Source: a virus
IMG/VR virus record: IMGVR_UViG_3300017818_000007
Location: 1 to 64,000 of that record
Direction: 5' to 3' (one strand)
Length of the DNA: 64,000 bases
Each line of letters opens with the position of its first letter. Position 1 is the first letter of the stretch. The notes under the pieces were generated by a model. The model was not told the DNA's origin, ran no database searches, and saw nothing but the letters and a program-made list of their open reading frames with translations. The translations under genes and the position numbers were made by a program. Shown here piece after piece: positions 25,552-64,000 of the stretch.

Positions 25552-25559
25552 ACTAGTAA

Positions 25560-26294
25560 TTATTTCCTTATCTCAAAGTCTTCGCTTTTCTTGACTTTGC
25601 CTTTATAGTGGGTCATGTACTCTGCTAGGATTGTGTGCTTAAAAATGGTGTTATGATGACGATTTCCAAGGTCTCTAAAGATCTTCCCATGGCTTTCAAA
25701 CTCACTTACTACTGCACCAAACACATCTCCGTCATAAAAACGTCTTAAACTTTCACCATATCCTCTCATATAGTACTCACGGTAGCGATTTATGAAGTCT
25801 TCGTAATAGTAATGATGTCTATTGATAACATAAAAGCCTGTTTCACCACAAAGAACAGGTTTTATTTTCTTAAATCCTTCGCCTTTTACTTTTTTATGGT
25901 CATAAACAACAGCCATGTATGTTGCAAGTACATTATCTGGACATAATTTCCATAAAAATTCTTTAGGAATAGGTTTATAGGTAATTACATCACTATCAAT
26001 CCAAATTAAACGATCAGTACCTTCAAATTGACAGGCTCTTAACCAACTAAATGCTTTATAACTAAAAATTTTAACACGTTTTTTGTAATCTTTGGTTTGA
26101 AATTCTCTAAAATCTTCGTCTAGTTCGTCAAAACTGTGATACATTACATTATCGTGATTTTCTAACATAAAGTCTTCAGCAAAAACATGAAGAGTCACAT
26201 CTTTTGGCCAATATTTTACAAAAGAGTCAATACTATCCTTGCCTAGTTTATCATAGTATGCTTTATTTTGTGTAGTGACCGCTAAAATTTTCAT
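25560..26294 (-). CDS. GT-A type glycosyltransferase
   Basis: A 244-residue protein with a Rossmann start (MKILAVTTQNKAYYDKLGKD), DSD at residues 100-102 (LIWIDSDVITYK) and a GETGFYVINRHH segment. It is homologous to the rightward 271-residue protein. It overlaps the upstream gene by four bases. Confidence 0.75.
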   Translation of the reverse strand: MKILAVTTQNKAYYDKLGKDSIDSFVKYWPKDVTLHVFAEDFMLENHDNVMYHSFDELDEDFREFQTKDYKKRVKIFSYKAFSWLRACQFEGTDRLIWIDSDVITYKPIPKEFLWKLCPDNVLATYMAVVYDHKKVKGEGFKKIKPVLCGETGFYVINRHHYYYEDFINRYREYYMRGYGESLRRFYDGDVFGAVVSEFESHGKIFRDLGNRHHNTIFKHTILAEYMTHYKGKVKKSEDFEIRK

Positions 26295-27073
26295 AATTCT
26301 AGTATCTTTCTTGCTGTACCGTCTTTTAACTCACTATTATGAAACTGTCCATAGGCTAGATGACACGCCCACTTATAAACAAAGTCTGAGTCTGGGTATA
26401 ACGGGTGTTCAATACCTTCTAAACTAGACGACGATAATAATGATGCGGCGTTTGGTGCTAGTGTAAACGCAGGAACACCGTAAAGTATGGCTTCAGTAGC
26501 GGCTACACTTTGCAAAGTGACCACAGCAAATGCATTATCTAGTTCTTCGTAGATAGATTTACTAAGTCTGACTTTTCTCTTTTCTTTTTCTCGAACAATA
26601 ATTGGTCTATCAGTAAACTTTTTTAAATTAGTTAATACAGTGTTCTTCCATTCTTGAAGATTTATATCATAGAATATAGCAGGTTTTTCACTAGGCATAA
26701 CAACAAGAATATTACGCCCATCTTTCTTCCATTTTGGAATTTTATACTTTAATGCTTCCCATCTATCACTCGGGCGTTCAACAATGACGTTATGTTGTAA
26801 ATCATTTTTTACAATTCTGTGAAAAATTTTATAACCCATAGGATTAATAGGAGATTTATAATTACCCATATATCCACTATCAATGTAATAAAAGTCTCGT
26901 TTATCTTCCCAACACTTTTTCATAATGTCGTGACGAAGAATTCCTCTTAAAACAATAGGATCAGAAGAATTATTATAATCAAAGTTGTCTAAATTTATTG
27001 AACCGTGCTGATCAAAACTTGATGCAAACATATTGACATATTCGTCGGTTCCGCCTTTGCTTATAAACTTCAT
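26291..27073 (-). CDS. Capsule/polysaccharide synthesis-like glycosyltransferase (GT-B type), copy 3
   Basis: A 260-residue protein of the same family as the two other GT-B-type proteins, more diverged. It retains NAFAVVTLQSVAATEAILYG, VPAFTLAPNAASLL and a C-terminal LYPDSDFVYKW stretch. Its N-terminus (MKFISKGGTDEYVNMFASSF) is shortened. It abuts the next upstream gene by one base. Confidence 0.6.
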   Translation of the reverse strand: MKFISKGGTDEYVNMFASSFDQHGSINLDNFDYNNSSDPIVLRGILRHDIMKKCWEDKRDFYYIDSGYMGNYKSPINPMGYKIFHRIVKNDLQHNVIVERPSDRWEALKYKIPKWKKDGRNILVVMPSEKPAIFYDINLQEWKNTVLTNLKKFTDRPIIVREKEKRKVRLSKSIYEELDNAFAVVTLQSVAATEAILYGVPAFTLAPNAASLLSSSSLEGIEHPLYPDSDFVYKWACHLAYGQFHNSELKDGTARKILEL

Positions 27074-27765
27074 TAAATTGGTTTCCAGTTAGGATTTACT
27101 TTATTTGCTCTTTCAATCCACTGGTCACCATATTCAACATCTTTACAATTTTCAAACCAAGGACCGCCTTCGGTGTAATGTAATGCTTTAGGTTTGCCGT
27201 CTTTTGACTCGTTATACCAACCGACTAACCAATTCCACTCGTGACTTACTTCGCCTATTTCTTTATCTTTCAACCAACTAAAGCGATGTAAGAATTGTCC
27301 TGTTTCTTTGTTTACCATACTAGGAATAAGTCGTGCGTTGCTAGGATGTCCGCAATTCCAAAGAATCATCGAACTCCAGTTTTTACGTGGATATGGTAGT
27401 TGTGCTTTACCATCCATCTTTGTTCCCTCTTTTACATTATATTCGTGTTTAGCAACCATAACAGCATACTTGTCATCACGTTGTGCAAATAATTTATCAA
27501 TATCTTCTAACCATAAAAAATCACAATCACAAAAAACTGCCCAACCCTTATAGTTCATTAGGAACGGAATAAGAAAACGTGTAAATGTAAATTCAGTTGA
27601 ACTTAATTTGTCAACTGATCGTGTGTAAATTCCTTGATTTCTTAACTCGTGTTGTTTTAAATGCTTAACGTCGATTATTTCTTCAGTGCTATGACATAAA
27701 CTATATTCGCAAACATCACTAGCAATAGGTTCACGGCTATCGTAGCCTATAAACACAGTATTCAT
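27073..27765 (-). CDS. Glycosyltransferase-like protein with DxD site
   Basis: A 230-residue protein starting VFIGYDSREPIASDV, a start seen in phage and LPS-type transferases, with DCD at residues 80-82 (AVFCDCDFLWLEDI). The C-terminus has ALHYTEGGPWFENC, typical of an acceptor-binding loop. Assigned to GT-A from the DxD and fold pattern. Confidence 0.7.
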   Translation of the reverse strand: MNTVFIGYDSREPIASDVCEYSLCHSTEEIIDVKHLKQHELRNQGIYTRSVDKLSSTEFTFTRFLIPFLMNYKGWAVFCDCDFLWLEDIDKLFAQRDDKYAVMVAKHEYNVKEGTKMDGKAQLPYPRKNWSSMILWNCGHPSNARLIPSMVNKETGQFLHRFSWLKDKEIGEVSHEWNWLVGWYNESKDGKPKALHYTEGGPWFENCKDVEYGDQWIERANKVNPNWKPI

Positions 27766-27766
27766 G

Positions 27767-28567
27767 TTATTTTCCTTCTTTCCCGTAATCGTCGCTTACA
27801 CCTATACGACTTATATCATCTTCAATACAATTATCACCGTATTGTATTTCAATAATTCTTAACGGCTTTTTTGTTTTATTTTCTAATTGGTGCCATTCCC
27901 CAACGCCTATATTTAATTTATCAAATCTATTAAGCGTATCCATTTCTTCTAAGTCAGTTGAGCCGTCAATAGTATTAACTGTTGCAGTTCCTTCACTTAC
28001 AAACCATAGTTCGTTTCTGTGTTTATGTTTTTGCATACTCAACCGTTTACCCGGATCGACTGTAAGTTCTTTTAATTTAACTTCGTTGCCAACACCAAAT
28101 AAAACTCTGTAATATCCCCATGGGCGTTCAGTTTTAGGATACTTATAATCTTCTAGTATCCAACTGCTTGAATTCTTTTTATCACTGCCGCCTACACCAA
28201 ATTGAAATGATAGTCTACTATCGTCAATTAACATCTCAGGAATGTTTGTTTTAGTTCTATCTCCACCATTAGCAAAGATAACACTATCGCTTAAAAAGTT
28301 GTGTTCGTTAAGTACTTGCTGAATAGCATCGTTAGCAGTGTTATCGCTATCGTCAAAATCAATAACTTTGTCAACTACTGAAAGGTTTTCAATAATAGTT
28401 GCACGTTCCTCAAAAGGCATAAATGGCTTGCCTTTTTTACGTGTTAACCAATCATCTGAGTTAACACCAACAACTAGATAATCTCCTAGTTCTTTTGCGG
28501 CTTTAAAATAGGCAATGTGTCCTGAGTGTAAAGGATCAAAGCCTCCTGTGACTAATACTATCTTCAT
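27767..28567 (-). CDS. Cytidylyltransferase-cupin fusion
   Basis: Residues ~1-135 are a nucleotidyltransferase of the HldE C-terminal/TagD type, with LVTGGFDPLHSGHIAYF (HxGH site) and GVNSDDWLTRKKG. Residues ~145-260 are a cupin like the C-terminal part of ManC mannose-1-phosphate guanylyltransferases (ERPWGYYRVLF, KHKHRNELWFVSEG, GEWHQLENKTKKP). Fusing these two is unusual and suggests one enzyme that isomerises or binds a hexose/heptose phosphate and activates it. A late box lies five bases before the ATG. It heads the leftward sugar operon. Confidence 0.85.
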   Translation of the reverse strand: MKIVLVTGGFDPLHSGHIAYFKAAKELGDYLVVGVNSDDWLTRKKGKPFMPFEERATIIENLSVVDKVIDFDDSDNTANDAIQQVLNEHNFLSDSVIFANGGDRTKTNIPEMLIDDSRLSFQFGVGGSDKKNSSSWILEDYKYPKTERPWGYYRVLFGVGNEVKLKELTVDPGKRLSMQKHKHRNELWFVSEGTATVNTIDGSTDLEEMDTLNRFDKLNIGVGEWHQLENKTKKPLRIIEIQYGDNCIEDDISRIGVSDDYGKEGK

Positions 28568-28572
28568 GTTAA

Positions 28573-28580
28573 TATTTATT
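28573..28580 (-). promoter_or_regulatory. Late promoter, leaderless type
   Basis: AATAAATA with five bases to the ATG of the cytidylyltransferase-cupin gene, and no Shine-Dalgarno. Confidence 0.6.
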
Positions 28581-29298
28581 TGGTATTAGTTTTGCTAAGA
28601 GCAATGCTGATTATGTCTTCAAATATTTCATTTCCGGTCATATTTTTACGTAATTCTTTAGGAGTTTTGCTACCGTAATGCAAAAACCCTGTATCGTAAT
28701 AATGAAACCCTCTTTCACAATCTGTATTTCTTATTTTATATCTTGGATAATCATCAAATAAACTTTCAACAGCATCACCGTCATATGGACGATACAAGTC
28801 AAATATTTTACCACTGTTCCATAAGTTTTCGTATGTATTGATTAACACTTCTGTGTCTTTGCAGTTAGGATCTAACATAATGAATCCGCTGTCGTGCTTA
28901 TCTTGTTTAGATGTGCCACACCCCCATAATAATTTTGATTGCTTAAATTGTTCTATCTCATTATATAGTTTTTCTTCATCAAAATTTATAACTTCTATGT
29001 CAGTATCTAACAAAATTATGTAATCATACTCTTTTAGATTTCGAAATGCCCATACTTGGCTTTGCATTTTTTTCCAAAAGTTTGTAGACTTCCTTACTGT
29101 ACGCGGGTGTTTTAAAAAAGAGCAGTTTCTATCTAAAACAGATTCTAATTCAATTATTTTTGTTTGTTTAAGATTGATCTTATTACTATCATGAATAATA
29201 AATTTATCTCCAGGCAACTGTTCCCAACTTGGTAAACAATGCTGTGCAATTAGGTTCCAATATCCTTCGTCTGCTAATCCTGACCATGCTATTTTCAT
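28576..29298 (-). CDS. GT-A type glycosyltransferase-like protein
   Basis: A 240-residue protein with a DTD at residues 98-100 (DYIILLDTDIEVINF) and a KHDSGFIMLDPNCKDTEV segment. The late promoter of the downstream sugar operon lies inside its last codons. It is probably expressed from the upstream gp32-uvsX-uvsY transcript. Confidence 0.7.
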   Translation of the reverse strand: MKIAWSGLADEGYWNLIAQHCLPSWEQLPGDKFIIHDSNKINLKQTKIIELESVLDRNCSFLKHPRTVRKSTNFWKKMQSQVWAFRNLKEYDYIILLDTDIEVINFDEEKLYNEIEQFKQSKLLWGCGTSKQDKHDSGFIMLDPNCKDTEVLINTYENLWNSGKIFDLYRPYDGDAVESLFDDYPRYKIRNTDCERGFHYYDTGFLHYGSKTPKELRKNMTGNEIFEDIISIALSKTNTK

Positions 29299-29909
29299 TA
29301 TATAAACAATTTCCTTTTAAAATATTTTACGTCAAACAGTACACTATTAAACATAACACGCGGTATCATATAACCATACTTAACAACTATATCTAATGCT
29401 TTTTTACATCCTAACGGGGTTATTAGATATGCATCAAAGTTAGATAAACTTCTAGGAACAAACCCTGCATTATAGTCGTCATGCTGTCCAATATGCCAGT
29501 TATTATGATTTTCTAAACTAACAATACTATTTTCAAATTCCCATTCACCTGCACTTAGATTGAGAACTTCTGTATAATGTTCATTTATGTTTCCAGGAAT
29601 TGGCCACTGTTGCCAGCGGTAATCTTCTGTTATTAAAACAGATTTATCTAATTCAATACACTTCTTCCATGCACGAAAGTGATTATAAAACTTTTCAAAA
29701 TCAGAATCTGTCTTGTGTTTAGACATTCTGTAGTTTTTGTACTTTCCGTGTGTACTGCTTATTAGATTTTGTGATAAAGGGTTTAGTGTTATTATGCTTT
29801 GAATATTATCTCTATTATAACCTAATTCAACAAAGCGATCATAACAATCTTGATATGTTTTTTCAGTAGTTGTGGTATTGTTAAGTATTATAACATCAAA
29901 TTGATGCAT
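29298..29909 (-). CDS. GT25 (LPS glycosyltransferase)-like protein
   Basis: A 203-residue protein with FYNHFRAWKKCIELDKSVLI near residue 73 and TED just after, then FDAYLITPLGCKKALDIVVK near residue 158, as in GT25 LPS-core transferases. The usual acidic EDD site appears as TEDYRW. It overlaps uvsY by 14 bases, so a sugar gene is translationally tied to the recombination operon. Confidence 0.65.
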   Translation of the reverse strand: MHQFDVIILNNTTTTEKTYQDCYDRFVELGYNRDNIQSIITLNPLSQNLISSTHGKYKNYRMSKHKTDSDFEKFYNHFRAWKKCIELDKSVLITEDYRWQQWPIPGNINEHYTEVLNLSAGEWEFENSIVSLENHNNWHIGQHDDYNAGFVPRSLSNFDAYLITPLGCKKALDIVVKYGYMIPRVMFNSVLFDVKYFKRKLFI

Positions 29910-48496: not shown

Positions 48497-48504
48497 AATA
48501 AATA
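48497..48504 (+). promoter_or_regulatory. Late promoter box of the gp14-gp15 operon
   Basis: AATAAATA with eight bases to the gp14 ATG and no Shine-Dalgarno, so the predicted leader is only about three bases. Together with the gp13 box it forms a compact divergent late promoter. Confidence 0.6.
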
Positions 48505-48512: not shown

Positions 48513-49628
48513 ATGCCAAGATTGAGTTTATACAAACCAGAGAAATCCGCTGACTATCGCTTTATAGATAAGAACATATATGAAGCATTTCAGATCGGCG
48601 GTACAGACATATTTGTACACAAATACGAAGGCCCTGTTGAGCCAGGCGTAGGTACACCTGCAGAACCAAAAGGTGTTAGTGATATACCTGAAACAAAAAT
48701 ACAAGATTTGCTATTTTTAGAAAATAGAGATAGAAAATATTCCGACGATGTATATACACTTCGTGGAATTTACAATGTGCAAGATTTAGACTTTGATTTA
48801 TCACAGTTTGGTTTATTTTTACAAAACGATACTGTGTTTATTACATTTCACTTAAACAAGAGTGTTGAAGCAATTGGTAGAAAACTAATGAGTGGCGATG
48901 TTTTAGAATTGCCTCACTTAGTAGATGATTACGCATTAAACGATTTTCAAGTATCACTAAAACGCTTTTATGTTATTGAAGATATAAGTCGTCCAAGTGA
49001 AGGATTTTCACAAACTTGGTATCCACATTTATTACGTGCAAAATGTAAACCTATTATGGATAGTCAAGAATTTAAAGATATTTTTGACAAAGAATCAGGT
49101 GAAGAAGGTAAGACATTACGTGATGTGCTTTCAACATACGAAAAAGAAATGCAAATCAACGAACAAGTTATTGCACAAGCAGAAGCAGACGCACCAAAAA
49201 CAGGATACGATACAGAAGAATTTTTTGTTGTTCCAACTGATGATGCAGGTGATGTAAATATTAAAGATGACGGAGTAAACACTCCTACACTACAAACACC
49301 GGGCGGAAATTATTATATTGCATATGGTGGCGGCGATGGTTTACCTGCTAATGGTTCACCATATACATTTGGTACTTCATATCCAAATAGTCCTGCTAAA
49401 GGTGCATACCATTTAAGAACAGATTACTATCCTAATAGACTGTTTAGATATGATGGCAATCATTGGATTAAAGTTGAAGATGGAGCAAGAATGAGCCTTA
49501 CAAATACAGTTCAAAACAGTTATGTCACTGACTTTGTTAATGAAGATGCAACTAGAACTGAAGATGGACAAACAAAAAATGTACGTACTGCATTAAGTGA
49601 AGCACTTAAACCGGAGGCAGATAATTAA
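48513..49628 (+). CDS. 14: Neck protein (gp14)
   Basis: A 371-residue protein beginning MPRLSLYKPEKSADYRFIDK, with KIQDLLFLENRDRKYSDDVY near residue 65, LSQFGLFLQNDTVFITFHLN near 90, and LMSGDVLELPHLVDDYAL then SEGFSQTWYPHLLRAKCKP. These match marine T4-like gp14. The start is placed here, 18 codons inside an upstream frame, because of the family start and promoter box. The C-terminal ~130 residues, ending in a YHLRTDYYPNRLFRYDG..W module, are extra to T4. Confidence 0.88.
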   Translation: MPRLSLYKPEKSADYRFIDKNIYEAFQIGGTDIFVHKYEGPVEPGVGTPAEPKGVSDIPETKIQDLLFLENRDRKYSDDVYTLRGIYNVQDLDFDLSQFGLFLQNDTVFITFHLNKSVEAIGRKLMSGDVLELPHLVDDYALNDFQVSLKRFYVIEDISRPSEGFSQTWYPHLLRAKCKPIMDSQEFKDIFDKESGEEGKTLRDVLSTYEKEMQINEQVIAQAEADAPKTGYDTEEFFVVPTDDAGDVNIKDDGVNTPTLQTPGGNYYIAYGGGDGLPANGSPYTFGTSYPNSPAKGAYHLRTDYYPNRLFRYDGNHWIKVEDGARMSLTNTVQNSYVTDFVNEDATRTEDGQTKNVRTALSEALKPEADN

Positions 49629-51049
49629 TGGATCATTTTTATGACGGACAAATAAGAAGATTTGTCACACAGTTTATTCGTGCTTTTTCAAATTTTTCTT
49701 ATAAAGACAATGCTGGTACATTGCGTAAAGTTCCTGCTACATACGGAAACTTAACACGTCAAGTAGCACACATTATTCGTGACAATAGTGAAAACAAAGT
49801 TATTAGTGCACCTCGTATTGCTTGTTATATCACAGGATTAGAGTATGCACGTGAGCGTGTACAAAGTCCGACACACGTTGATAAATTACATTTTAGAAAA
49901 CGTGATTATAACGAAGCAACACAGCAATACGAAGATGTTCAAGGGGTTGGTAATACTGTTGAACGTTTGATGCCTGTACCATTTACACTAAGAATGAAGG
50001 CAGATATTTGGTCAACTAATACAGATCAAAAATTACAAATTATGGAACAAATACTTGTTCTATATAACCCTGCACTAGAAATACAAACAACAAACAACTA
50101 TGTTGATTGGACTTCACTTAGTTTAATTGAACTAGCAAGTGTAAACTATTCAACTAGAAGTATTCCGCAAGGAACTGAAACAGAAATTGATATAGGTGAA
50201 ATGGAATTTACAATGCCTATATGGATTACACCTCCTGCTAAAGTTAAAAAACTTGGAGTCATTGAAAAAATTATTATGAATATTTTTGATGAGTCAGGAA
50301 GTATTAGTGACGGCTTTATTGATGCAACTATTCCAATGGCAACAGTTGTTAAATCTCCAGGCGATTTTAAATTACTTGTATTAAACAATACTGCTAAACT
50401 ACTGCATACCGGAGAAGGTGTTTCAGAATCAAATACAGGTATCTTTACTAGAACAGGCGATCCTATTAGTTGGTTTAAACTATTAGATCAATATCCAGGG
50501 AAATTCACTGCCGGTACTAGTAGTATTAGATTACTAAAGAGCGATGGTAATGAAGTTGTTGCTACAATTAGTTTAAACCCTACAGATGACAACGAAATGG
50601 TTCTTTCAATTGATAGTGATACTGTTCCAGAAAACACAGTATTAGCAGACAGTGTTAATAGTAGAGGAACAATAGATGCTATTATTGATCCTACAAAATA
50701 TGCCCCAGACTACTCTACAATAAGTGCTGGAACAAGATATCTAATACTAAATCCAATTAATCCAAATGTAAAAGGTGATAGTTCTGACGCAAATGCAAAT
50801 GCCTGGCAAAATGCTGATGGTTCTGTATTTAAAGCAGAAGAAAATGACATTATAGTTTGGACTGGAACACAATGGGAAATTGTGTTAGACGCAAGTGGCA
50901 CAAATAGCGGAGCCGATTCTGCTTCCTCACCAGACCCAGTGTATATAACTAATACATATACTGGTATTCAGTACAAGTTAGATAATGGTGCTTGGCTGAA
51001 GAGTTTTGAAGGTGAATATGAGGCAGATGAATGGAGACTAGTTCTGTAA
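49628..51049 (+). CDS. 15: Tail terminator/sheath stabiliser (gp15)
   Basis: The N-terminal ~230 residues (FYDGQIRRFVTQFIRAFSNF, then LRKVPATYGNL, PVPFTLRMKADIWSTNTDQK, LQIMEQILVLYNP) fit gp15, which caps the tail tube and sheath. At 473 residues it is much longer than T4's ~270. The extra C-terminal part includes TISAGTRYLILNP, NDIIVWTGTQWEIVLD and YKLDNGAWL, the same W-type surface module seen in the sheath and gp14. It overlaps gp14 by one base. Confidence 0.85.
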   Translation: MDHFYDGQIRRFVTQFIRAFSNFSYKDNAGTLRKVPATYGNLTRQVAHIIRDNSENKVISAPRIACYITGLEYARERVQSPTHVDKLHFRKRDYNEATQQYEDVQGVGNTVERLMPVPFTLRMKADIWSTNTDQKLQIMEQILVLYNPALEIQTTNNYVDWTSLSLIELASVNYSTRSIPQGTETEIDIGEMEFTMPIWITPPAKVKKLGVIEKIIMNIFDESGSISDGFIDATIPMATVVKSPGDFKLLVLNNTAKLLHTGEGVSESNTGIFTRTGDPISWFKLLDQYPGKFTAGTSSIRLLKSDGNEVVATISLNPTDDNEMVLSIDSDTVPENTVLADSVNSRGTIDAIIDPTKYAPDYSTISAGTRYLILNPINPNVKGDSSDANANAWQNADGSVFKAEENDIIVWTGTQWEIVLDASGTNSGADSASSPDPVYITNTYTGIQYKLDNGAWLKSFEGEYEADEWRLVL

Positions 51050-51477
51050 AAGATATAATTTGTAGTGGTGCATTGTTTTATGCAAAGGACACCAGTCGCT
51101 TTTTATTCCTACAAAGAACAAAACATAAAACAGCAGGCCAATGGGGTCTTGTTGGTGGCATGAGTGAAGAAGGCGAAACGCCTTGGAAAGCACTTGAAAG
51201 AGAAATCTTAGAGGAAGTTGGCAAAACTCCAAAATTTGAAAAAATTATTCCTTTAGAATTATATACTTCAAAAGACGAAAAGTTCTTTTTTCACACTTAT
51301 ATTGTTGTAGTAGAAAAAGAGTTTATTCCTACATTAAACAACGAGCATTCAGGATATGCATGGACATATGCTAAAGATTATCCAAAACCTTTACACGTTG
51401 GCTTACGTAATACACTTCAAAGCAAAGTAAATCAAACAAAAATTGAAACAATAGTTGAAGTAGTTAAAAGTTTATGA
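51031..51477 (+). CDS. NUDIX hydrolase
   Basis: The NUDIX box is complete: GGMSEEGETPWKALEREILE followed by EVG, starting near residue 42. It cleaves a nucleoside diphosphate linked to another group. The gene lies between gp15 and the heptose genes, overlapping both by a few bases, so a role in nucleotide-sugar or ADP-sugar turnover is plausible but not shown. Length (148) is typical for a single domain. Confidence 0.9.
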   Translation: METSSVKDIICSGALFYAKDTSRFLFLQRTKHKTAGQWGLVGGMSEEGETPWKALEREILEEVGKTPKFEKIIPLELYTSKDEKFFFHTYIVVVEKEFIPTLNNEHSGYAWTYAKDYPKPLHVGLRNTLQSKVNQTKIETIVEVVKSL

Positions 51478-52709
51478 TCAAAGTTATTGGCGACATAATG
51501 TTAGATCGATGGATCTATGGTAATGCTGATCGTGTCAGTCCCGAGGCTCCGGTACCTGTATTAAAAGAAGAAAGTCAAGAATACAGTGTAGGTGGTGCAG
51601 GAAATTTAGCACTTAATCTTGCAAATTTAAATGTAGAACTAGACTTGTACTCAGCACTTTCTCAAGATAAAGAAGGGTTTAAAGTCTTAGAATTATTAAA
51701 AAATTATACAACGTTAAGCAGTAATATTGTTCTTGATTCTAAAACAACTACAACAAAGACTCGTTTAGTTGGCCAAGGTGGACAACATATAATGAGATGG
51801 GATAGAGAAGAACATTACATTGGCGATTTAAAAAATAGAATAGATTACAATGAAGATTTTTATGTTATAAGCGATTATAATAAAGGTGTTATTGACTTAG
51901 AATTAATGAGCAAATTAAAGAATAAAAAAGTTTTTGTTGATCCTAAGCAAATGCCACAAATGTATAAAGATGCATTTTTAGTTAAACCAAATATGTTTGA
52001 GTTTAGATCATGGTTTGGAGATTTTTCAGTTTCAAAAGCAAGACAAAAATTAAATGATTTTTATTGGACTTGGTTAGTAGTGACTGACGGTGCTAACGGT
52101 GTTTACGTTATCAACGAAACAGATGATTGGCATTTTAAAGAAGAAGTAAGAGAAGTGGCTGACGTCACGGGGGCAGGAGATACATTCCTAGCAGTGTTAG
52201 TGTATGCTTATGCTACAAAAAACATGACTATACCTGATGCTTGTAAACTAGCCTGTTATGCTAGTGCTAGGAATGTTGAAAAAAGAGGTGTGCATTTAGT
52301 TTCTTTTGAAGATTTAAATAGAGGAATTGTTTGGACAAACGGTGTATTTGATATACTACACCCTGGACATTTAGAGTTATTAAAATACTCAAAAAGTCTA
52401 GGAAGAAAACTTATTGTTGGTATTAATGATGATGAAAGTGTAAAAAGATTAAAAGGTCCTACAAGACCTATTAATAACTTTTTAATTAGAAAACGACAAT
52501 TAGAAATGCTACCATGGGTCGATGAAGTTGTTGTTTTTACTGAAGATACTCCGCAACAAATATTAGAAGATATTAGGCCTGATATTATTGTTAAAGGTGG
52601 GGACTATACAACAGAAACAACAGTTGGACACGAACTTGCTGAAGTTAAAATTTTTCCAACTATTGAAGGTCACAGTACAACAGATATCATTGGAAGGATT
52701 AAAGAATGA
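51474..52709 (+). CDS. hldE: Bifunctional heptose-7-phosphate kinase / heptose-1-phosphate adenylyltransferase
   Basis: Residues ~1-275 are a PfkB-type kinase (GGAGNLALNLANL near residue 38, VADVTGAGDTFLAVL near 225 with the catalytic Asp). Residues ~280-411 are a nucleotidyltransferase (VWTNGVFDILHPGHLELL with the HPGH site, GINDDESVKRLKG). This is the full HldE architecture, slightly short of the usual ~475. With HldD downstream it would make ADP-heptose for LPS core. Four-base overlaps on both sides point to one operon. Confidence 0.92.
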   Translation: MIKVIGDIMLDRWIYGNADRVSPEAPVPVLKEESQEYSVGGAGNLALNLANLNVELDLYSALSQDKEGFKVLELLKNYTTLSSNIVLDSKTTTTKTRLVGQGGQHIMRWDREEHYIGDLKNRIDYNEDFYVISDYNKGVIDLELMSKLKNKKVFVDPKQMPQMYKDAFLVKPNMFEFRSWFGDFSVSKARQKLNDFYWTWLVVTDGANGVYVINETDDWHFKEEVREVADVTGAGDTFLAVLVYAYATKNMTIPDACKLACYASARNVEKRGVHLVSFEDLNRGIVWTNGVFDILHPGHLELLKYSKSLGRKLIVGINDDESVKRLKGPTRPINNFLIRKRQLEMLPWVDEVVVFTEDTPQQILEDIRPDIIVKGGDYTTETTVGHELAEVKIFPTIEGHSTTDIIGRIKE

Positions 52710-53197
52710 TTGTTGAAGCATATTTGCCTAACTGGAAAGACTACGAAGAGATTTATAATGAGTGGTCAAACAAATCTTCTGACAACTGGAAAACACAGTC
52801 AACAACAGTAGGGTTTGATATTGGCCAACCTGGTATTCCTAATTCTTTTGATGTAAAACTAAAAGAAGATTATAATAAAGCAATACAACAAATTATTCCT
52901 AATTGGTCATTTGGAAAAATATTAAACATTTGGGGTGTTTATTATAGAGATTATGGATATCAAACTGTACATAGGCACAACCAAGACAGTGTAGCAACTA
53001 TTCTTTATTTTGATACACAACCTGAAGAAGATAAGTTGACAACACTTAATGGTTTATTTTATACTATACACGACGATCAACACAAAACAATTAAACCAGA
53101 ACCAGGAAAATTATTATTAATTAATTGGGACGTTTGGCACGGAGTGTATCCTGCTAAAGAACCTAGAAGAAGTTTTATGGTGGATTTTGCTACATGA
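52706..53197 (+). CDS. 2OG-Fe(II) oxygenase-like protein
   Basis: A 163-residue protein with TVHRHNQDSVATILYF (His89, His91), LLLINWDVWHGVYPA (His145) and RRSFMVDF (Arg155). This fits a short phage oxygenase, with HxH replacing the usual HxD. The substitution leaves catalysis uncertain. It lies inside the heptose operon with four-base overlaps on both sides, so a sugar or nucleotide sugar may be its substrate. Confidence 0.6.
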   Translation: MIVEAYLPNWKDYEEIYNEWSNKSSDNWKTQSTTVGFDIGQPGIPNSFDVKLKEDYNKAIQQIIPNWSFGKILNIWGVYYRDYGYQTVHRHNQDSVATILYFDTQPEEDKLTTLNGLFYTIHDDQHKTIKPEPGKLLLINWDVWHGVYPAKEPRRSFMVDFAT

Positions 53198-54024
53198 ATA
53201 TTTTAATTACAGGAAACGAAGGATTTATAGGACAAAACTTATCAACGTATTTGGTAAGTAAAGGACACACAGTAGAAGGATTCGAATGGAAAGGAGATGG
53301 TATTATACCTGACCCAAGTACATATGATTGGGTTATACACCTTGGCGCAATTAGTTCAACAACTGAAACAGATGTTGAAAAGATCATGAAACAAAATTAC
53401 GAATTTACAATGAATCTTTTACAAATTTGTGATAGAATGGGTGTTAATATACAACTTGCAAGTTCAGCAAGTGTGTATGGTCCTGGTTTAGACGGATTTA
53501 AAGAAGAGTCTAACTGTTTACCAAAAAGTCCATATGCTTGGACAAAGTATCTAATTGATCGTTGGTTAAAAGAAGCAGGAGTAAATGACTTTAATATGCT
53601 TGTACAAAGTTTTAGATACTTTAATGTTTACGGACCGCACGAAGATCATAAAGGCGACCAAGCAAGTCCTGTGCATAAATTTACACAGCAAGCCAAAGAT
53701 AATAAAGTTATTAAATTATTTGAAAACAGTGACAAGTATGTAAGAGATTTTGTTTGTGTTAGCGATGTATGTCGAGTACATGAAGAAATGTTAACACAAG
53801 ACACTAGTGGTATTTTTAATGTAGGCACAGGAACAACTACAAGTTTTAAAGAAGTTGCTGATGTAATTGCAAATAAGTGGGGAGCAAAAGTAGAAACTAT
53901 TCCTATGCCAGAAAATTTAAAAGGACAATATCAAGAATATACTTGTGCAGACTTGACAAATTTAAATAAACATTGTAAAATAAACGATTATATGACAGTA
54001 AAGGAATATATTAATGCCTACTAA
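53194..54024 (+). CDS. hldD: ADP-heptose 6-epimerase (HldD-type SDR)
   Basis: An extended short-chain dehydrogenase of 276 residues. The NAD site GNEGFIGQNL lies at residues 7-16, SSASVYGPG near 89, and the Tyr/Lys pair in SPYAWTKYLI. The HldD-specific stretches are HLGAISSTTETDVEKIMKQN, SFRYFNVYGPHEDHKGDQAS, YVRDFVCVSDV and LKGQYQEYTCADLTNL. It converts ADP-D-glycero- to ADP-L-glycero-manno-heptose. It follows HldE in the same operon. Confidence 0.88.
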   Translation: MNILITGNEGFIGQNLSTYLVSKGHTVEGFEWKGDGIIPDPSTYDWVIHLGAISSTTETDVEKIMKQNYEFTMNLLQICDRMGVNIQLASSASVYGPGLDGFKEESNCLPKSPYAWTKYLIDRWLKEAGVNDFNMLVQSFRYFNVYGPHEDHKGDQASPVHKFTQQAKDNKVIKLFENSDKYVRDFVCVSDVCRVHEEMLTQDTSGIFNVGTGTTTSFKEVADVIANKWGAKVETIPMPENLKGQYQEYTCADLTNLNKHCKINDYMTVKEYINAY

Positions 54025-54406
54025 TGATGAAAATACACCAGAACGTTTAAACGGTAAAGTTGAAAAAGCGTGGGGGTATGAATTAATTTGGGCAACCAAC
54101 GACAAGTATTGTGGCAAAATACTTTTCTTTGAAAAGAAAGGCTCTAAGTTTTCAATGCACTTTCATAAGGAAAAAGACGAAAGTTGGTTTGTTAATAATG
54201 GAAAATTTCTTTTACGTTATATTGATCCACGCACTGCAACTATGCACACAAAAGAACTTAATCCCGGCGATGTTTGGAGAAACCCGCCATTATTGCCGCA
54301 TCAATTAGAAGCATTAGAGGATAACAGTTCAATTACTGAAGTGAGTACTGCTGATAGTGTTGCTGACAACTATAGAATTTTACCAGGCGATTCGCAAACT
54401 ACTTAG
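54014..54406 (+). CDS. Cupin-domain protein (phosphomannose isomerase-like)
   Basis: A 130-residue cupin: EKAWGYELIWATNDKYCGKI, SMHFHKEKDESWFVNNG (metal His/Glu), LNPGDVWRNPPLLPHQLEAL (second His). It resembles the ManC C-terminal cupin and the cupin half of the fusion in the sugar island. As the last gene of the heptose operon it may act on a sugar phosphate. It overlaps HldD by 11 bases. Confidence 0.78.
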   Translation: MPTNDENTPERLNGKVEKAWGYELIWATNDKYCGKILFFEKKGSKFSMHFHKEKDESWFVNNGKFLLRYIDPRTATMHTKELNPGDVWRNPPLLPHQLEALEDNSSITEVSTADSVADNYRILPGDSQTT

Positions 54407-54524
54407 TTTTCTTTTTAATCCAACGATAGGCCGTATAGCCTAACAATAGTACAATAATAGTACCAATTCCATCTATCCAAGATGTTTCGTTCATTGCTCT
54501 GATTAGATCTGCTGTAATTTCCAT
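54399..54524 (-). CDS. Small single-pass membrane protein (41 aa)
   Basis: A short N-terminal polar region (MEITADLIRAMNETSWIDG) is followed by a hydrophobic helix (IGTIIVLLLGYTAY) and a basic tail (RWIKKKTK). The ATG overlaps the TAA of the giant fibre gene (TAATG). It overlaps the convergent cupin gene by eight bases. The topology resembles small phage holin-like or envelope proteins, but there is no lysis gene nearby. Confidence 0.6.
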   Translation of the reverse strand: MEITADLIRAMNETSWIDGIGTIIVLLLGYTAYRWIKKKTK

Positions 54525-57500
54525 TATGCTTGTGCCTCTGACCAACGTAGAATAAGTTCGCCTGATACAGCACTACCTGATGTTTTATACACGTTAATTG
54601 CTAGTACGTCTGGACCGTTCGGGAATGTACCTCTACCACCTAGTGTGGTATTAGTTAATTCTTTAATGAACGACAAGTCTAGTGTTGAACGCTCTCCAGG
54701 TCTAGCAACAAAACCAAATATTGTTTCACCTGGTTGTGCATACGGTGGTGCTGTAAAGTCAAATGTCACTGTTGTAGTACCTTTATTAATAGTACTACTA
54801 TCTGTACTTTGTGAGAATGAAACTGCATAATATTCCACGTTGTTCCATTCTTTTAGTTCAACTGTAGAAACAGATGTGTTAGCAGGAAAACGTGTTTCAC
54901 TTGATGCTACTGATGTACCTTGTGTTGCGCCTGATGCTTCCCAAGTTGCTTTTGTAAAATACATTTCAGATGTTGGTGCATCTTTGAATGTATTTGTAAT
55001 TGTAGTAGTGACTGCTGTATTTTGGCCAACTGTACCGCTTGGTCTTTGACTAATATCCAACCTAACACCATTTACATACTGTCCAGCGACATGGTCATAT
55101 AAAAAGTCACCTGTATTAACTCTTGTAATCGTTGTACCTGCGGCAATATTTGTACCAGTAATTGGTTTACCAATTGAATCATTAATTGTCGCTTGATTTG
55201 CTAGATAGTCAGTTTCTTTAATATACAGTGTTTGTCTTCTATCTGAAACTGATCTCCAATACGATTGGTTAGTATTATATTTTTGCCATACTTGAACGTT
55301 AAATGTAATTGGTGCCTGTGTTGTTGCTGTTGTTGTGACTGTTGAAGCGCCGCCGTTCCAGTTAACAGAACCACCCGGTGCAATCTGTGCGAAACTTGGC
55401 TGTCCACCTTGTGCAACACCTGTTAGACCCTGCCAACCAATGTCATCTGGATTGACTGGATAGTTTTGCGGATTAAGCACACCTGCAACAACAATGTTTC
55501 CTGTTTGTCCACTAGCGTTTGGTTCTGTAGTAATTTCAAGACCTTCTAGTAGCAACTGTGCTCTGTTAATAAGTTCTCTTTCGCCCAAGTCACCTGTTAG
55601 TGCATTAGATACACTAGGTGCTAGTCTAATTAGGAAAGACGTAAATGGTGTTGTACTAAACTGTGTACCTGTGGAAGTATATGAGAATAAGAATCCTCTA
55701 TCTGAATCAAAACCACCGTCTGTAATAAACGAAGAACCCCAGTGTTGAATAATTGGCGTTGTAGTATTACTTGCTAGTACCATTCCTGTCTTAGCACTGT
55801 GCGAATCCGCTGGGCCTGCTGTGTATGTTCTGGTTGCACCTGAAGCAAATTGCTGTAATGGTGCTTCACGTGTACACCCGATTAACGTGTTTCCGTCAAT
55901 ACTTGAATATGTAATTAATTCGTTGTCAATGTATACTGTACCGCCATCTTCAGGAAAATCACTAGCATCTTCTAACTCAATACTTGTGTCACTAAAACTG
56001 ATATTTGATTTTAGTTTACCAATAGCACTTTCGTTAATGACTTCATAACGCACAGGTTGGTTTCCTGTTCTCATATATGCTTCTGTGTTAATATTTGAAT
56101 TACGCATTCTATGAGCCATGATAAAATTACCATCACTGCCTCTAAACATATAATCAATAAATCCAGCACCATACCATGAGTATTGAATTCCAATCATCTG
56201 CATATATGAAATATCTAAATCATAACCCGATTTGCCTGTTCCATCACACTTATCTCTATTCCAATGATCTTGTCTTGCTTTTTTATCAACAACTTTAGCC
56301 ATCTTAGCACCACTAATATTGCTAATACCTCTATAGTCAGGCGATACGTTAATACTTGATTGATTGTTAACTTTTGTCACAACGTGAGTCATACCACGAA
56401 TAACAATTCTATCACCAACACTTAATTGGTCTTGAAATCTAGTATTTGTTCCTGTAATTTCGTTTTGATCTTTATATGCTGTACAAGTACCCGATAACTG
56501 GAAAGTAGCACTTCGTTGTACACAATACAAGTGTTTACCAGTGTATTCAAAGAAGATACCATTTTGATCATCATATGTTCCTGCTCTAACAACAGCACCG
56601 TGCCATAATCTAGTTTGACACTGTGGATTATCTGTAAGTGTTGCAGTAGTATCACCTAAGATATATTTTGCTCTTACAGTAAAACTACGTTCGTCAATAA
56701 CACTATCTACAGCATACTGCCCGTTATATCCTGCTGTTTCAATACCTTTAATTCGAATAGTTGCTCCAACTTGTAGACCGTGATCTACATCATCTGTTGT
56801 GACTGTAATTGTACTATTAACCGCAGTTCCGTCTGCAGATGCATTTAAAATATCATAACTTGGTGCAAACAAAGCACCAGTTGTGTACATAATACCTTTA
56901 CCTGACTGGTATCTAATATATTTTTTACTTTGACGTATTGCCTGTGCGCCATGTACCGGTGAACCTGTTCCTAATTGTACACCACCGTCAAATGGTCTAT
57001 GTACAAAGAATGCATCCGGTCTAGGATAAACTGTTCCTCGAATTGGGTTGTCATTATTTGTTCCAGTATCGATAGCACCAACCGACAGTGCTTGATACGA
57101 AATTTGATCTAAAGCACTTACTGCCGTTGCAATAAATGATCCTGCCGCTAGGTAGTGATTGTTTCCTGTTCCATCAGTTAAATCATCTCCTGATTCAACA
57201 CTAACAATAAATGTTGAACCTGGTAGTAGACCATGAGGACTACCAAACGCAACACTAATTGTTGCTAGAGCATCAAAATCAACATCACTTCCTTGTGCTA
57301 GAGCACCTGTTGTTGATTCAGACATCGAAATTGTACTATAAACACTTATTGTATCACCTGCTTTTGCGGAACCTGTTCCACTTGCTGTTGTAAAACCACC
57401 AGTACCGTCAACTGTATCAGCAGACACTATTAAATCATTTGCAGGAGACTCTCCACCTAAATTATTGCCTGCAATAGTAATTCTATTTCCAATCTTATAA

Positions 57501-60382
57501 CCACTACCAGGTGTGTTAATAGCACTAATAGTATAAACACCGTTGTTTCTATTAATGTCAAAACTTGCACCATTTCCTGCCGGAGCATCGTTAAATCCTT
57601 CTACGCTTGTAAATGATCCATTACCACTTACAGCACTACCACTTGCACTTACGTTAATAACGCCACCAATACTGTCAACACTTCCAGTGACTGTTAATGT
57701 TGCATCGTTAACGCCGTTTGTACCTCCAAGATCACTACCTTGAATTACAATTTCGTCATTAACTGCGTAATCTTGGCCAGCGTCAACTACTGTTGCACTG
57801 TAATTTCCGCCGCTTGTTGAAATATTAAATAGAGCACCGCTACCAACTAACAGTTCGTAGTTATTATTATCAACACTTTCATATGTTTGACTGTTTAAAC
57901 CTGTACCACTTTGTGAAAATGTTTGAATTGTTCCATTAACATCAACACTGTCAACTGTTAATGTTAAATCATTTGTAGGACTTGTACCACCTAATTGGTC
58001 ACCTGAAATAACTAGTGTATCACTAACAGCAAAGTTTGAACCACCATCTTGTAAAGTGACAATGTATGTTGTTGCATCTTTTTGTACATCAATACCAGCA
58101 AGTGTTCCAGAACCTCCTGTTGTATAACTTAAACCTGTATAATTTACGTTTGCATCAGTTGCAGTACCACTAACACTAACTGTTAAAATATTACCAAAAC
58201 TGTCAACACTAGTCACAGTAATTAAACAGTCATGTGTTCCATCGAGGCCGCCAAGTACACTACCTCTTACATTGATTCTATCGTTTACAATAAAATCAGT
58301 AGAAGCATTTGGACTAAAAATTTCAACACTGTAAGATCCACTAGTTTTTGTAATATTAAACTGTGCGTTAGTACCATTACCACCTTGTGTTGTACCGCCT
58401 AAGTTATTATATGTAGCAACACCGTCAAAACCTGTTCCACTAGCAACAAAGTTAATAACAGCGCCTGGAGTATCTGAGTCAGTGACTCTAATTTCAATAT
58501 CATGTGTTCCTGACTGGCCGCCAACACTACTTCCGTCAATTATAATATAGTCACCAATTTCATAACCACTACCAGGTTGATTTCCTACGACATTATAAGT
58601 TCCATTAGTTAATGTGACATCAAATGTTGCTCCAAGACCTTGTGGACTAACATTAAAACCTTCAACTCCAGTATAATCAATATTATCACCAGCATAGGTT
58701 TTTCGTGTTCCGTTTGCAAGGTTAACTTGTGTTCCTGCAATACTATTAATAAAGTTTGCTTGGCTGTCATCGTCTATGGCCATATTTTGTAAAAGACCAG
58801 TAGCATCAGAAACCGTAATTGTTTGGCTTCCTTGCGGAGCATCTTCTGCAATCGTAAGTGTAAGTTCAGGATTACCACCATCACCAATAACACCTGTGAC
58901 TTGCGTTCCTGTTGGAATAAATGCTGAGCCAACATCATCTAGAGGAGCACCTAGTTCTGGAACACTACCATAAAATGGCAATCTACTAGAACTAGTTGGT
59001 GTTGCTAGTGCTAGAGTAAATGTTCCTTGGCTACCGTTTGATGTGACTGTAAACGAAGGTGAATCAGAAATATTTGATCCTGTATAAAATCCGCCTTGTC
59101 TTAGTTGAATGTACGGAGTATACAGTGTTTCTGGATCAGTGACACCAACTTTTGCTTTTGCATAATATTCAAATGTACTATCAGATGGTACGCCTGTAAT
59201 AATAAACGAACCTTCTGCTCTGTTAAAACCTTTTACACTTGGTTCTAAACCTTTAATAGTAATTGGTTGTCCAATACTAAATCCATGATTACCTAGTGTT
59301 GTGACTGTAATTTTTGATTGACCAATTCCGCCTGTACCTGACGATACGTCTGAAGTCACGTTTGCAACAGTAGCATCAGTTCCTGGAACTTCATAAATTG
59401 AAGGATAACCTCTTAGCATTCCAATCGCTTGCCATTTAGTAGGCTGTAGGCCATACTCAAAGTCAGCGTCAAGCATTGATAATGGATTAGCAACACGATT
59501 ACGTTCAATAGCATCAGTACCAAAATCAAATGGTCTTGTAATTGTTTCTTGTTTATCTACAAAAATTTGAATGTTATCAGTTGATGCATTTCCTGTTGTA
59601 TCTGCATATAGTTGGATTGTTGTTAAGTAATCTGAAGTTTGTGTATAGTCATAATAATCATCATCGTGTTCAAAGTCTAACTGAGAAAAATCTCTTTCTC
59701 CATTATCAAACTTTTTAAATTTTGTTTCGGCTAATAGGTTGGTATCAGTAAAGTTATATAATACTTTACCCCTTGTGACGTTTGAAATTAATAGAATATC
59801 TTCTAAATTAACTTTTCCAAGTATCTTAATTCTTGTATATCCGTTATACTCTGTGTCTGGCAGTTGCCCTAGGCCACTAGTAATAACATTGATGATAATA
59901 TCAGCAAGGACTCCAACAGCAGTTGAAGCATCTGCTTCGCCAGTTTCACCTGTTGTGACTTGTGGAACTGCTGATTGATACGGACTGCTTTGAACAGTTT
60001 TTGTAAGAATATTACTTTGAATTAATCCTTTTAAAAACGTATGTGTTTCAATTTCTGGAGTTCTAGAACCGTCTACTTGAGGAGTGTCGCCGTCCCAATA
60101 TCTATTAGCAACATATACAGTTTCTTCATTACCGCCATAACGTAAATCGTTTTGATATGCATTGATTACGTATCCAACGTCTCTATCACACTTGGCTGAA
60201 TCGTAAGTATATCCATTCCAATCACCCAATCCCTCTGCAACTTTTGCGGAAATAAAGGCTTTGACTTCTGCTTTCATAAAAGCAATGTTAGCATCAAATA
60301 ATGTCCAAGCATTTGGATATTTGTTCCCTGCAAAGGATATACCTGGTGTAAATTTATATTCTGTAATTCGGGTTCTTGCCAT
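54524..60382 (-). CDS. Giant tail-fibre-type virion protein (1952 aa)
   Basis: The N-terminal ~330 residues (MARTRITEYKFTPGISFAGN..., NEETVYVANRYWDGD) form an attachment domain seen in large marine phage structural proteins. Residues ~580-1010 contain five tandem beta repeats. A large region (about 1060-1560) contains FVHRPFDGGVQLGTGSPVHG, KKYIRYQSGKGIMYTTGALF, DLDISYMQMIGIQYSWYGAG and GFIDYMFRG, a set common to marine myovirus fibres. The C-terminal ~300 residues are a beta-rich distal domain. It probably contacts the host; the ribosome binding site is AGGAAAAACAC. Confidence 0.8.
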   Translation of the reverse strand: MARTRITEYKFTPGISFAGNKYPNAWTLFDANIAFMKAEVKAFISAKVAEGLGDWNGYTYDSAKCDRDVGYVINAYQNDLRYGGNEETVYVANRYWDGDTPQVDGSRTPEIETHTFLKGLIQSNILTKTVQSSPYQSAVPQVTTGETGEADASTAVGVLADIIINVITSGLGQLPDTEYNGYTRIKILGKVNLEDILLISNVTRGKVLYNFTDTNLLAETKFKKFDNGERDFSQLDFEHDDDYYDYTQTSDYLTTIQLYADTTGNASTDNIQIFVDKQETITRPFDFGTDAIERNRVANPLSMLDADFEYGLQPTKWQAIGMLRGYPSIYEVPGTDATVANVTSDVSSGTGGIGQSKITVTTLGNHGFSIGQPITIKGLEPSVKGFNRAEGSFIITGVPSDSTFEYYAKAKVGVTDPETLYTPYIQLRQGGFYTGSNISDSPSFTVTSNGSQGTFTLALATPTSSSRLPFYGSVPELGAPLDDVGSAFIPTGTQVTGVIGDGGNPELTLTIAEDAPQGSQTITVSDATGLLQNMAIDDDSQANFINSIAGTQVNLANGTRKTYAGDNIDYTGVEGFNVSPQGLGATFDVTLTNGTYNVVGNQPGSGYEIGDYIIIDGSSVGGQSGTHDIEIRVTDSDTPGAVINFVASGTGFDGVATYNNLGGTTQGGNGTNAQFNITKTSGSYSVEIFSPNASTDFIVNDRINVRGSVLGGLDGTHDCLITVTSVDSFGNILTVSVSGTATDANVNYTGLSYTTGGSGTLAGIDVQKDATTYIVTLQDGGSNFAVSDTLVISGDQLGGTSPTNDLTLTVDSVDVNGTIQTFSQSGTGLNSQTYESVDNNNYELLVGSGALFNISTSGGNYSATVVDAGQDYAVNDEIVIQGSDLGGTNGVNDATLTVTGSVDSIGGVINVSASGSAVSGNGSFTSVEGFNDAPAGNGASFDINRNNGVYTISAINTPGSGYKIGNRITIAGNNLGGESPANDLIVSADTVDGTGGFTTASGTGSAKAGDTISVYSTISMSESTTGALAQGSDVDFDALATISVAFGSPHGLLPGSTFIVSVESGDDLTDGTGNNHYLAAGSFIATAVSALDQISYQALSVGAIDTGTNNDNPIRGTVYPRPDAFFVHRPFDGGVQLGTGSPVHGAQAIRQSKKYIRYQSGKGIMYTTGALFAPSYDILNASADGTAVNSTITVTTDDVDHGLQVGATIRIKGIETAGYNGQYAVDSVIDERSFTVRAKYILGDTTATLTDNPQCQTRLWHGAVVRAGTYDDQNGIFFEYTGKHLYCVQRSATFQLSGTCTAYKDQNEITGTNTRFQDQLSVGDRIVIRGMTHVVTKVNNQSSINVSPDYRGISNISGAKMAKVVDKKARQDHWNRDKCDGTGKSGYDLDISYMQMIGIQYSWYGAGFIDYMFRGSDGNFIMAHRMRNSNINTEAYMRTGNQPVRYEVINESAIGKLKSNISFSDTSIELEDASDFPEDGGTVYIDNELITYSSIDGNTLIGCTREAPLQQFASGATRTYTAGPADSHSAKTGMVLASNTTTPIIQHWGSSFITDGGFDSDRGFLFSYTSTGTQFSTTPFTSFLIRLAPSVSNALTGDLGERELINRAQLLLEGLEITTEPNASGQTGNIVVAGVLNPQNYPVNPDDIGWQGLTGVAQGGQPSFAQIAPGGSVNWNGGASTVTTTATTQAPITFNVQVWQKYNTNQSYWRSVSDRRQTLYIKETDYLANQATINDSIGKPITGTNIAAGTTITRVNTGDFLYDHVAGQYVNGVRLDISQRPSGTVGQNTAVTTTITNTFKDAPTSEMYFTKATWEASGATQGTSVASSETRFPANTSVSTVELKEWNNVEYYAVSFSQSTDSSTINKGTTTVTFDFTAPPYAQPGETIFGFVARPGERSTLDLSFIKELTNTTLGGRGTFPNGPDVLAINVYKTSGSAVSGELILRWSEAQA
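57340..58640 (-). repeat. Five tandem repeats inside the giant fibre gene
   Basis: Each copy encodes ~75-85 residues around a core of D.i.I.G..lGG.....ND..l.V.sVD..G.i....sG.. The GG....ND cores are visible five times. The copies are diverged, so the repeat is old and protein-level. Confidence 0.75.
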
Positions 60383-63762: not shown

Positions 63763-63770
63763 TATTTATT
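63763..63770 (-). promoter_or_regulatory. Late promoter, leaderless type
   Basis: AATAAATA with five bases to the next ATG. It overlaps the stop codon of the carbamoyltransferase gene. Confidence 0.65.
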
Positions 63771-64000
63771 GATTCTTTAACGTAATCAACTTACCATGCT
63801 CTGGAAGATACAAGTATTCAATATCGCTTTGTTGTAGTGTCCAAAAAGCATCTTCTAGGGTTTCTACTAATGGTTCACCACCTAGATTAAAACTAGTATT
63901 AAAAATAATTGGAACTCCAGTTTTATCTTTAAATGTTTTAATTAAATCATAGTAGTGTTCGTTTTGATCTCTGTTAACACTTTGAATACGGCAAGTACCA
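63766..64000 (-). CDS. Carbamoyltransferase C-terminal domain (partial, runs off the window)
   Basis: The last 78 residues of a leftward gene whose 5' part lies beyond the window edge. RIQSVNRDQNEHYYDLIKTF, then KDKTGVPIIFNTSFNLGGEP and LVETLEDAFWTLQQSDIEYL, match the end of NodU/TobZ carbamoyltransferases (the YrdC-like C-terminal part). The N-terminal-domain protein at 6486-7469 lacks exactly this part. Whether this gene is full length or a C-terminal-only partner cannot be told from the window. Confidence 0.85.
   Translation of the reverse strand, partial: GTCRIQSVNRDQNEHYYDLIKTFKDKTGVPIIFNTSFNLGGEPLVETLEDAFWTLQQSDIEYLYLPEHGKLITLKNQ

Follow-up and report, generated by a model that had tools for sequence, protein, structure and literature searches.

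Background

Which enzyme would begin heptose synthesis in a virus that carries homologues of the later pathway genes and no recognizable GmhA, the usual first enzyme? The question is raised by a five-gene cassette in a 64,000-base stretch of viral DNA (“the window”), which comprises bases 1-64000 of the 181,867-base record IMGVR_UViG_3300017818_000007, from a T4-like marine virus that infects bacteria. The cassette encodes, in order, a NUDIX hydrolase, a fused HldE-like kinase/nucleotidyltransferase, a 2-oxoglutarate (2OG)-Fe(II) oxygenase-like protein, an HldD-like epimerase and a cupin. On the basis of active-site residues and gene context, we propose that the cupin is most likely a non-orthologous sedoheptulose-7-phosphate isomerase that replaces GmhA.

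Heptose genes in phages have already been catalogued (PMC7378029, PMC7029224, PMC11461863), and the literature already contains the idea of a phage-encoded ADP-heptose pathway, both in cyanophages and across viruses in general (PMC7378029, PMC11461863). In a study of heptose biosynthetic enzymes across kingdoms, Tang et al. in 2024 are reported to have found that viruses encode such enzymes (PMC11461863, PMC11573728). Because a rearranged cyanophage version of the cassette is known, phage heptose genes as such are not new, although years of cataloguing have not brought a demonstrated use. New, as far as the literature we searched goes, are the cupin as a replacement for GmhA, for which we found no earlier report of sedoheptulose-7-phosphate isomerase activity, and the connection with a transferase of GT9 fold and a carbamoyltransferase. 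Once these three enzymes are assigned, scattered genes, some of them misnamed, fall together as one pathway that leads to an end product, and the assignment predicts which phages can run the pathway in hosts lacking GmhA. The same cupin would fill the vacant first step of heptose operons in archaea and in bacteria of the candidate phyla radiation (CPR). If this is true, the family has hitherto been hidden behind labels that include “cysteine dioxygenase” and “nucleotidyltransferase”.

Results

A heptose cassette without GmhA

All five cassette genes lie on the plus strand: the NUDIX hydrolase (51031..51477), which has a canonical Nudix box and stands before HldE throughout the clade; the HldE-like fusion (51474..52709), with a kinase domain at residues 1-283 and a nucleotidyltransferase domain at 284-411; the oxygenase-like protein (52706..53197; phrog_81, below Pfam cut-offs); the HldD-like ADP-heptose 6-epimerase homologue (53194..54024); and the cupin (54014..54406; phrog_7851), the predicted sedoheptulose-7-phosphate isomerase. 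Each frame overlaps the next (end/start 51477/51474, 52709/52706, 53197/53194 and 54024/54014). The operon is real, and the coordinates and gene content given for it by an earlier, sequence-only reading are correct.

We found no match to the GmhA model TIGR00441 across the whole record and no GmhA match in related viral loci. The cyanophage protein annotated as “phosphoheptose isomerase” was rejected as a GmhA: it is a HAD protein that matches family TIGR01689 and has no SIS match, and it is probably a phosphatase. As no GmhA was found and the cyanophage “isomerase” is a HAD protein, the isomerase step is left without a gene unless the cupin performs it. The proposal that the host must supply GmhA is therefore unsupported, with the cupin the best candidate for this step. 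The relative of the cyanophage HAD in this record is a small protein (phrog_1238, genome 165176-165508) that might serve as the phosphatase; a commentary on Tang et al. counts the virus phosphatase as absent (PMC11461863), whereas here there is a HAD candidate alongside the cupin as candidate isomerase. The PHROG names are likely wrong in both cases, with phrog_1238 (“phosphoheptose isomerase”) being a HAD protein and phrog_7851 (“cysteine dioxygenase”) an isomerase-like cupin; such errors propagate from one database to the next.

The cupin carries the residues of a sugar isomerase

Among 46 aligned members of the cupin family, the Pfam D-lyxose isomerase profile (Lyx_isomer) matches 40 and MannoseP_isomer 30 (E 0.01), while the window's own cupin matches only the Cupin_1 and Cupin_2 profiles. 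The sugar contacts reported for the Thermofilum D-lyxose isomerase are K62, H75, H77, K86, E88, H143, E156 and D163, together with Mn (PMC8378251). The phage cupin has counterparts in the same order (K35, H49, H51, K54, E56, H96, E109 and D118), all invariant in 46/46 members, and an alignment with the Bacillus subtilis enzyme 2y0o covers the first seven of these eight residues. Its AlphaFold model is confident, with a predicted local distance difference test score (pLDDT) of 92. The mannose/fructose and D-manno-heptose/sedoheptulose pairs have the same stereochemistry around the isomerized carbons.

The Thermofilum enzyme (TsLI, 7nzo), 2y0o and type II phosphomannose isomerase share with the phage protein the cupin fold and the HxH...KxE...H...E metal/sugar site. 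Unlike those isomerases, the phage cupin is about 130 residues long, carries conserved YCGK and STxH motifs, sits in heptose operons and has a predicted phosphorylated C7 substrate. Its fold also differs from that of GmhA, so that our claim is that it would work like GmhA, not that it is GmhA. We considered the cysteine dioxygenase of the PHROG name and rejected it on residues and context.

Genomic context places the cupin in heptose operons

The phage cupin alignment served as query for a scan of 84,980 genomes of bacteria and archaea. The cellular relatives come mostly from DPANN archaea, CPR bacteria and other metagenome-assembled genomes (MAGs). Nine loci were treated as phage contigs; among the 62 other family members, 19 have both a heptose kinase and a heptose nucleotidyltransferase within 10 kb of the cupin. 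Several cellular operons run GT9, cupin, HldD, kinase, GmhB, nucleotidyltransferase, with no GmhA match. The cupin is fused to the kinase in four loci and to HldD in one, an arrangement reminiscent of fusions of isomerase, kinase and nucleotidyltransferase already described in the heptose pathway (PMC11573728).

If the cupin replaces GmhA, the two should seldom occur together. We examined 237 genomes from the phylum of one cupin locus, 47 of which have a heptose nucleotidyltransferase match of at least 140 bits. Of these 47, 26 have GmhA only, 15 the cupin only, one both and five neither; in the genome with both, the cupin and the nucleotidyltransferase are on different contigs. The Fisher p for exclusion is 2.8e-7 (3.3e-6 without the seed genomes, 2.2e-5 when two weaker SIS matches count as GmhA), values that are indicative only, because the thresholds were chosen with the score gaps already in view and because the p ignores both the relatedness of the genomes and the incompleteness of many of them, which are MAGs. 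The distance to the nucleotidyltransferase is no more than 6 kb for GmhA in 22/27 cases and for the cupin in 10/16.

The cupin also occurs in an operon of the other heptose type. In Synechococcus phage Bellamy it stands between HddA-like (279 bits) and HddC-like (62 bits) genes, both below the NCBIfam cut-off, in an operon of GDP-heptose type with a separate HAD gene nearby. What the ADP- and GDP-heptose routes share is the isomerase step and the phosphatase step. GmhA goes unmatched in 88 of the 121 genomes of the Prochlorococcus family, so cyanophages that carry the cassette would often need an isomerase of their own.

Further cupins were seen outside this setting. In Campylobacterales (L120, L129, L133, L146), members of the family accompany a weakly matching nucleotidyltransferase with no heptose kinase nearby, a pairing that hints at other substrates. 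In the window, a second phrog_7851-type cupin (52 bits) lies at 15491-16563 (minus strand) beside a 235-aa protein that resembles, by eye, the 233-235-aa insert of 16 related heptose cassettes. At 27767-28567 (minus strand), within a glycosyltransferase-rich island at 19767-29909, one protein joins an RfaE-II-like nucleotidyltransferase to a cupin resembling type II phosphomannose isomerase and may belong to a second route to a nucleotide sugar.

HldE and HldD homologues keep their motifs

The HldE-like protein matches PfkB (107.8 bits) and CTP_transf_like (65.9 bits), with the kinase before the transferase as in HldE. HldE is its best NCBIfam match by a wide margin, although the score of 313.7 falls short of the equivalog cut-off of 521, and the two domain scores (202.4 and 144.7 bits) fall short of 345 and 181.5. 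The kinase GAGD (233-236) and the transferase HxGH (296-299) and STT (401-403) are kept in the homologues and in E. coli HldE. The HldD-like protein scores 244.3 bits against TIGR02197, below the cut-off of 274.6, and its best PDB match is E. coli HldD (1eq2, E 7e-47). Its GxxGxxG motif reads TGNEGFIG, and S90, Y114, K118 and K153 are conserved; these correspond to the Ser, the YxxxK pair and the K178 equivalent, residues that we take to have the role generally assigned to them in E. coli HldD. The sequence-only reading had named loss of the kinase and HPGH residues as the finding that would count against it; we see these motifs retained, and its reading of HldE and HldD homologues is supported by the intact GAGD, HxGH, STT and Ser-Tyr-Lys motifs. 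Since every equivalog cut-off is missed, “works like HldE/HldD” is the safe wording.

The residue before STT in the nucleotidyltransferase is H, not R. According to a commentary, Tang et al. take an Arg at this position to mark broad nucleoside triphosphate (NTP) use (PMC11461863), and by that rule the phage enzyme would be without the broad-NTP Arg.

Compared with the E. coli pathway (GmhA, HldE, GmhB, HldD, WaaC), the phage shares homologues of the kinase, nucleotidyltransferase, epimerase and heptosyltransferase, but the SIS-fold GmhA is apparently replaced by the cupin, the phage record has no GmhB, and expression would be late in infection.

The cassette is conserved among related viruses

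A scan of IMG/VR gave 411 related stretches. In the best 80 of these 411, the order gp15-NUDIX-HldE-(oxygenase)-HldD-cupin is kept nearly wherever the contig reaches, and the cassettes converge on a giant virion protein; the oxygenase goes unrecognized in part of them. The ratio of nonsynonymous to synonymous substitution rates (dN/dS) is well below 1 for each cassette gene. Given this conserved order in about 80 contigs and the low dN/dS, the cassette is not a chance arrangement.

Some related cassettes contain inserts, named by eye: a halogenase, the 233-235-aa protein, and 2OG-oxygenase-like and methyltransferase-like proteins. The idea that a GmhA is concealed there was rejected, as no isomerase is among them. 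The halogenase, tryptophan-halogenase-like by eye, lies between NUDIX and HldE in cassettes L048, L049, L051, L063-L066, L068 and others, and an annotated tryptophan halogenase is also present in the S-SSM7 cassette (L096); halogenating either a sugar or a protein would be out of the ordinary.

Cyanophages carry a rearranged version, GT9-like, carbamoyltransferase, nucleotidyltransferase, kinase, HAD, cupin, epimerase, oxygenase. This Kyanoviridae cassette (P-SSM2 PSSM2_307-314, S-CAM1, S-SSM7, Sf-FS3) has the same gene families and likewise lies near neck or tail genes, but its kinase and nucleotidyltransferase are separate genes and the HAD is inside. In our record, the two are fused, the HAD candidate is remote, the GT9-like gene and the carbamoyltransferase are about 10 kb off, and a NUDIX gene leads.

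Probable late expression with neck and tail genes

Upstream of the cassette on the plus strand lie a gp14-like neck protein, the first gene of the unit (48514..49628; phrog_11591), and a gp15-like tail sheath stabilizer (49628..51049; phrog_11196, phrog_227). The nearest promoter-like element for the gp14-gp15-cassette unit is the late-promoter motif AATAAATA at 48497..48504 (plus strand), in which ATAAATA, at 48498, precedes the gp14 ATG at 48514. ATAAATA has 29 copies genome-wide, of which 21 lie no more than 60 nt before a gene start, compared with 3.2% of random positions, and one further copy is found immediately 5' of gp14's true start. From gp15 through the cupin, we did not find the motif. 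As ATAAATA stands before gp14 and is absent from gp15 to the cupin, motifs and spacing suggest that the cassette is probably transcribed late, as the distal end of the gp14-gp15 message. The sequence-only reading had placed the operon after gp15 under a late promoter; it does follow gp15, and late co-transcription is probable, but the nearest motif is before gp14 and not at gp15.

A linked transferase and carbamoyltransferase

The sequence-only reading had suggested a genome search for heptosyltransferases, and this returned a candidate. About 10 kb from the cassette, among tail genes, lie a phrog_8954 protein (genome 65583-66779, outside the window) and, directly downstream on the same strand, a NodU-type carbamoyltransferase (genome 63766-65583, minus strand), whose 3' part occupies 63766..64000 of the window. 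The former passes the Pfam GT9 gathering threshold narrowly (23.7 bits vs 22, over 54 residues), and a PDB sequence search with a GT9-like profile returned nothing, so that the relation is seen only by structure model. In Foldseek, its model (pLDDT 73) has a GT-B fold and best matches 3tov (GT9), TibC, WaaC and WaaF; phrog_8954, listed as “unknown function”, is thus likely to have a heptosyltransferase fold, as modeled. The carbamoyltransferase matches Carbam_trans_N (102 bits) and Carbam_trans_C (200 bits). The transferase is present in 17/20 related records and adjoins the carbamoyltransferase in 12/13 loci, the 13th being cut off; this adjacency is common to both phage groups, the related contigs and the cyanophages.

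As the heptosyltransferase-fold protein stands beside the carbamoyltransferase among tail genes, transfer of the sugar and its carbamoylation probably take place late, with a tail protein or the surface of the host as acceptor. TibC, whose substrate is an adhesin protein, and Aah are protein heptosyltransferases that modify autotransporter adhesins, and the predicted transferase fold matches TibC, although identity is low (11-12%). Aah, related to TibC, is mentioned in PMC11461863, and a putative carbamoyltransferase, WapO, has been credited with carbamoylation of heptose in Pseudomonas lipopolysaccharide (LPS; PMC8005017). On the phage side, a candidate acceptor is the 1952-aa virion structural protein convergent with the cassette (54524..60382, minus strand; phrog_5838), whose closest isolate relatives occur in S-CAM1 and S-CAM3, both of which carry the cassette and the transferase.

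Discussion

We consider it likely that the cupin is the founder of a family of metal-dependent sedoheptulose-7-phosphate isomerases that stands in for GmhA in DPANN archaea, CPR bacteria and marine phages, and that it allows these phages to make activated heptose in hosts lacking GmhA, the carbamoylated sugar then being added to phage or cell-surface structures late in infection. In the proposed pathway, the cupin would convert sedoheptulose 7-phosphate to D-glycero-D-manno-heptose 7-phosphate in place of GmhA; the HldE kinase domain would phosphorylate C1 of heptose 7-phosphate; the C7 phosphate would be removed by the small phage HAD at 165 kb or by host GmhB; the nucleotidyltransferase domain would form ADP-heptose; and HldD would epimerize its C6. 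The heptosyltransferase-fold protein would then transfer the heptose and the NodU-type protein carbamoylate it, a tail protein of the virion being the likeliest acceptor and the surface of the host a less likely one. As a whole, a late-expressed phage pathway with a cupin isomerase and linked transfer and carbamoylation seems reasonably likely to us. The analysis shows the genes, their motifs and order, their co-occurrence, the mutual exclusion of cupin and GmhA, and the predicted folds; from these we infer the activities, order of use and acceptor alike.

Several observations weigh against this proposal, besides the limits of the exclusion test. The match between D118 and D163 is by spacing only, as the displayed 2y0o alignment stops before D118, and a fold search with the cupin model matches cupins of many functions alike without singling out isomerases. 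GmhA-like proteins (92-124 bits) are carried by 3 of 17 CPR/DPANN-type genomes with cupin heptose operons, and two genomes of proteobacterial origin likewise carry one. A heptose kinase is missing from the neighbourhood of many family members, and the family may thus act on several different sugars. With HldE and HldD below all NCBIfam equivalog cut-offs, their substrate could also differ; variable tailoring genes in the cassettes (2OG oxygenase, halogenase) point the same way. We regard that reading as unlikely, since HldE is by far the best NCBIfam match, the catalytic residues are intact, the epimerase finds E. coli HldD as its best PDB match, and a heptosyltransferase-fold protein is linked. 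For the phosphatase, there is no match to the GmhB model TIGR00213 across the record, and the HAD candidate is far from the cassette and found in one of 20 related, mostly partial, records. Supply of GmhB by the host, as first proposed, is plausible on this account, but the HAD might serve instead, and a GmhB homologue is present in two relatives, in one case directly 3' of the cupin. Finally, the evidence for the acceptor is circumstantial, and more distant relatives of the 1952-aa protein occur in phages outside the transferase matches.

Could the phage give only HldE and HldD, with GmhA and GmhB coming from the host and the cupin having some other role, such as sugar tailoring? Many Gram-negative hosts do have both enzymes, and cupins of the WbuC or epimerase kind have other jobs, and the family is also found without heptose kinases. 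Yet this would leave unaccounted for the mutual exclusion of cupin and GmhA, the cupin-kinase fusions, the cupin in a GDP-heptose type operon and the full set of isomerase active-site residues. Moreover, phages of hosts like those of the Prochlorococcus family carry the cassette although most genomes of that family have no GmhA match, and cyanobacterial LPS is reported to be without heptose (PMC4390846), which argues against a host-supplied GmhA. We therefore regard this explanation as unlikely and retain the cupin as the isomerase. The destination of the sugar is less clear. The usual reading for glycosyltransferases of T4-like marine phages is that they act on the host surface (PMC7029224), and heptose placed on host LPS or capsule could hide receptors and block superinfection. 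The LPS-acting WaaC and WaaF among the transferase fold matches, heptose carbamoylation known from LPS, and a separate glycosyltransferase-rich island at 19.7-29.9 kb all fit such a role. Set against them are the probable late co-transcription with neck and tail genes, the position of transferase and carbamoyltransferase within the tail gene region, TibC, a protein heptosyltransferase, among the nearest folds, and the presence of the cassette in those isolates whose tail proteins are most closely related to the 1952-aa protein. Modification of the host surface rather than the virion is thus a possibility that we hold only tentatively, and for an acceptor on the virion we judge the chances to be about even.

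Other features of the record

Besides the full carbamoyltransferase, the window contains one with the N-terminal domain only (6486-7469, minus strand). The nearest relatives of the terminase, at 56% identity, are in Pseudomonas phages such as PA5oct. Three genes are possibly related to deazaguanine: a radical-SAM protein that is QueE-like by eye (genome 151660-152553), a Vut_1/YhhQ-type transporter (window 14869-15489), and a protein without a Pfam or PHROG match that is tRNA-guanine transglycosylase-like by eye (genome 159880-161337).

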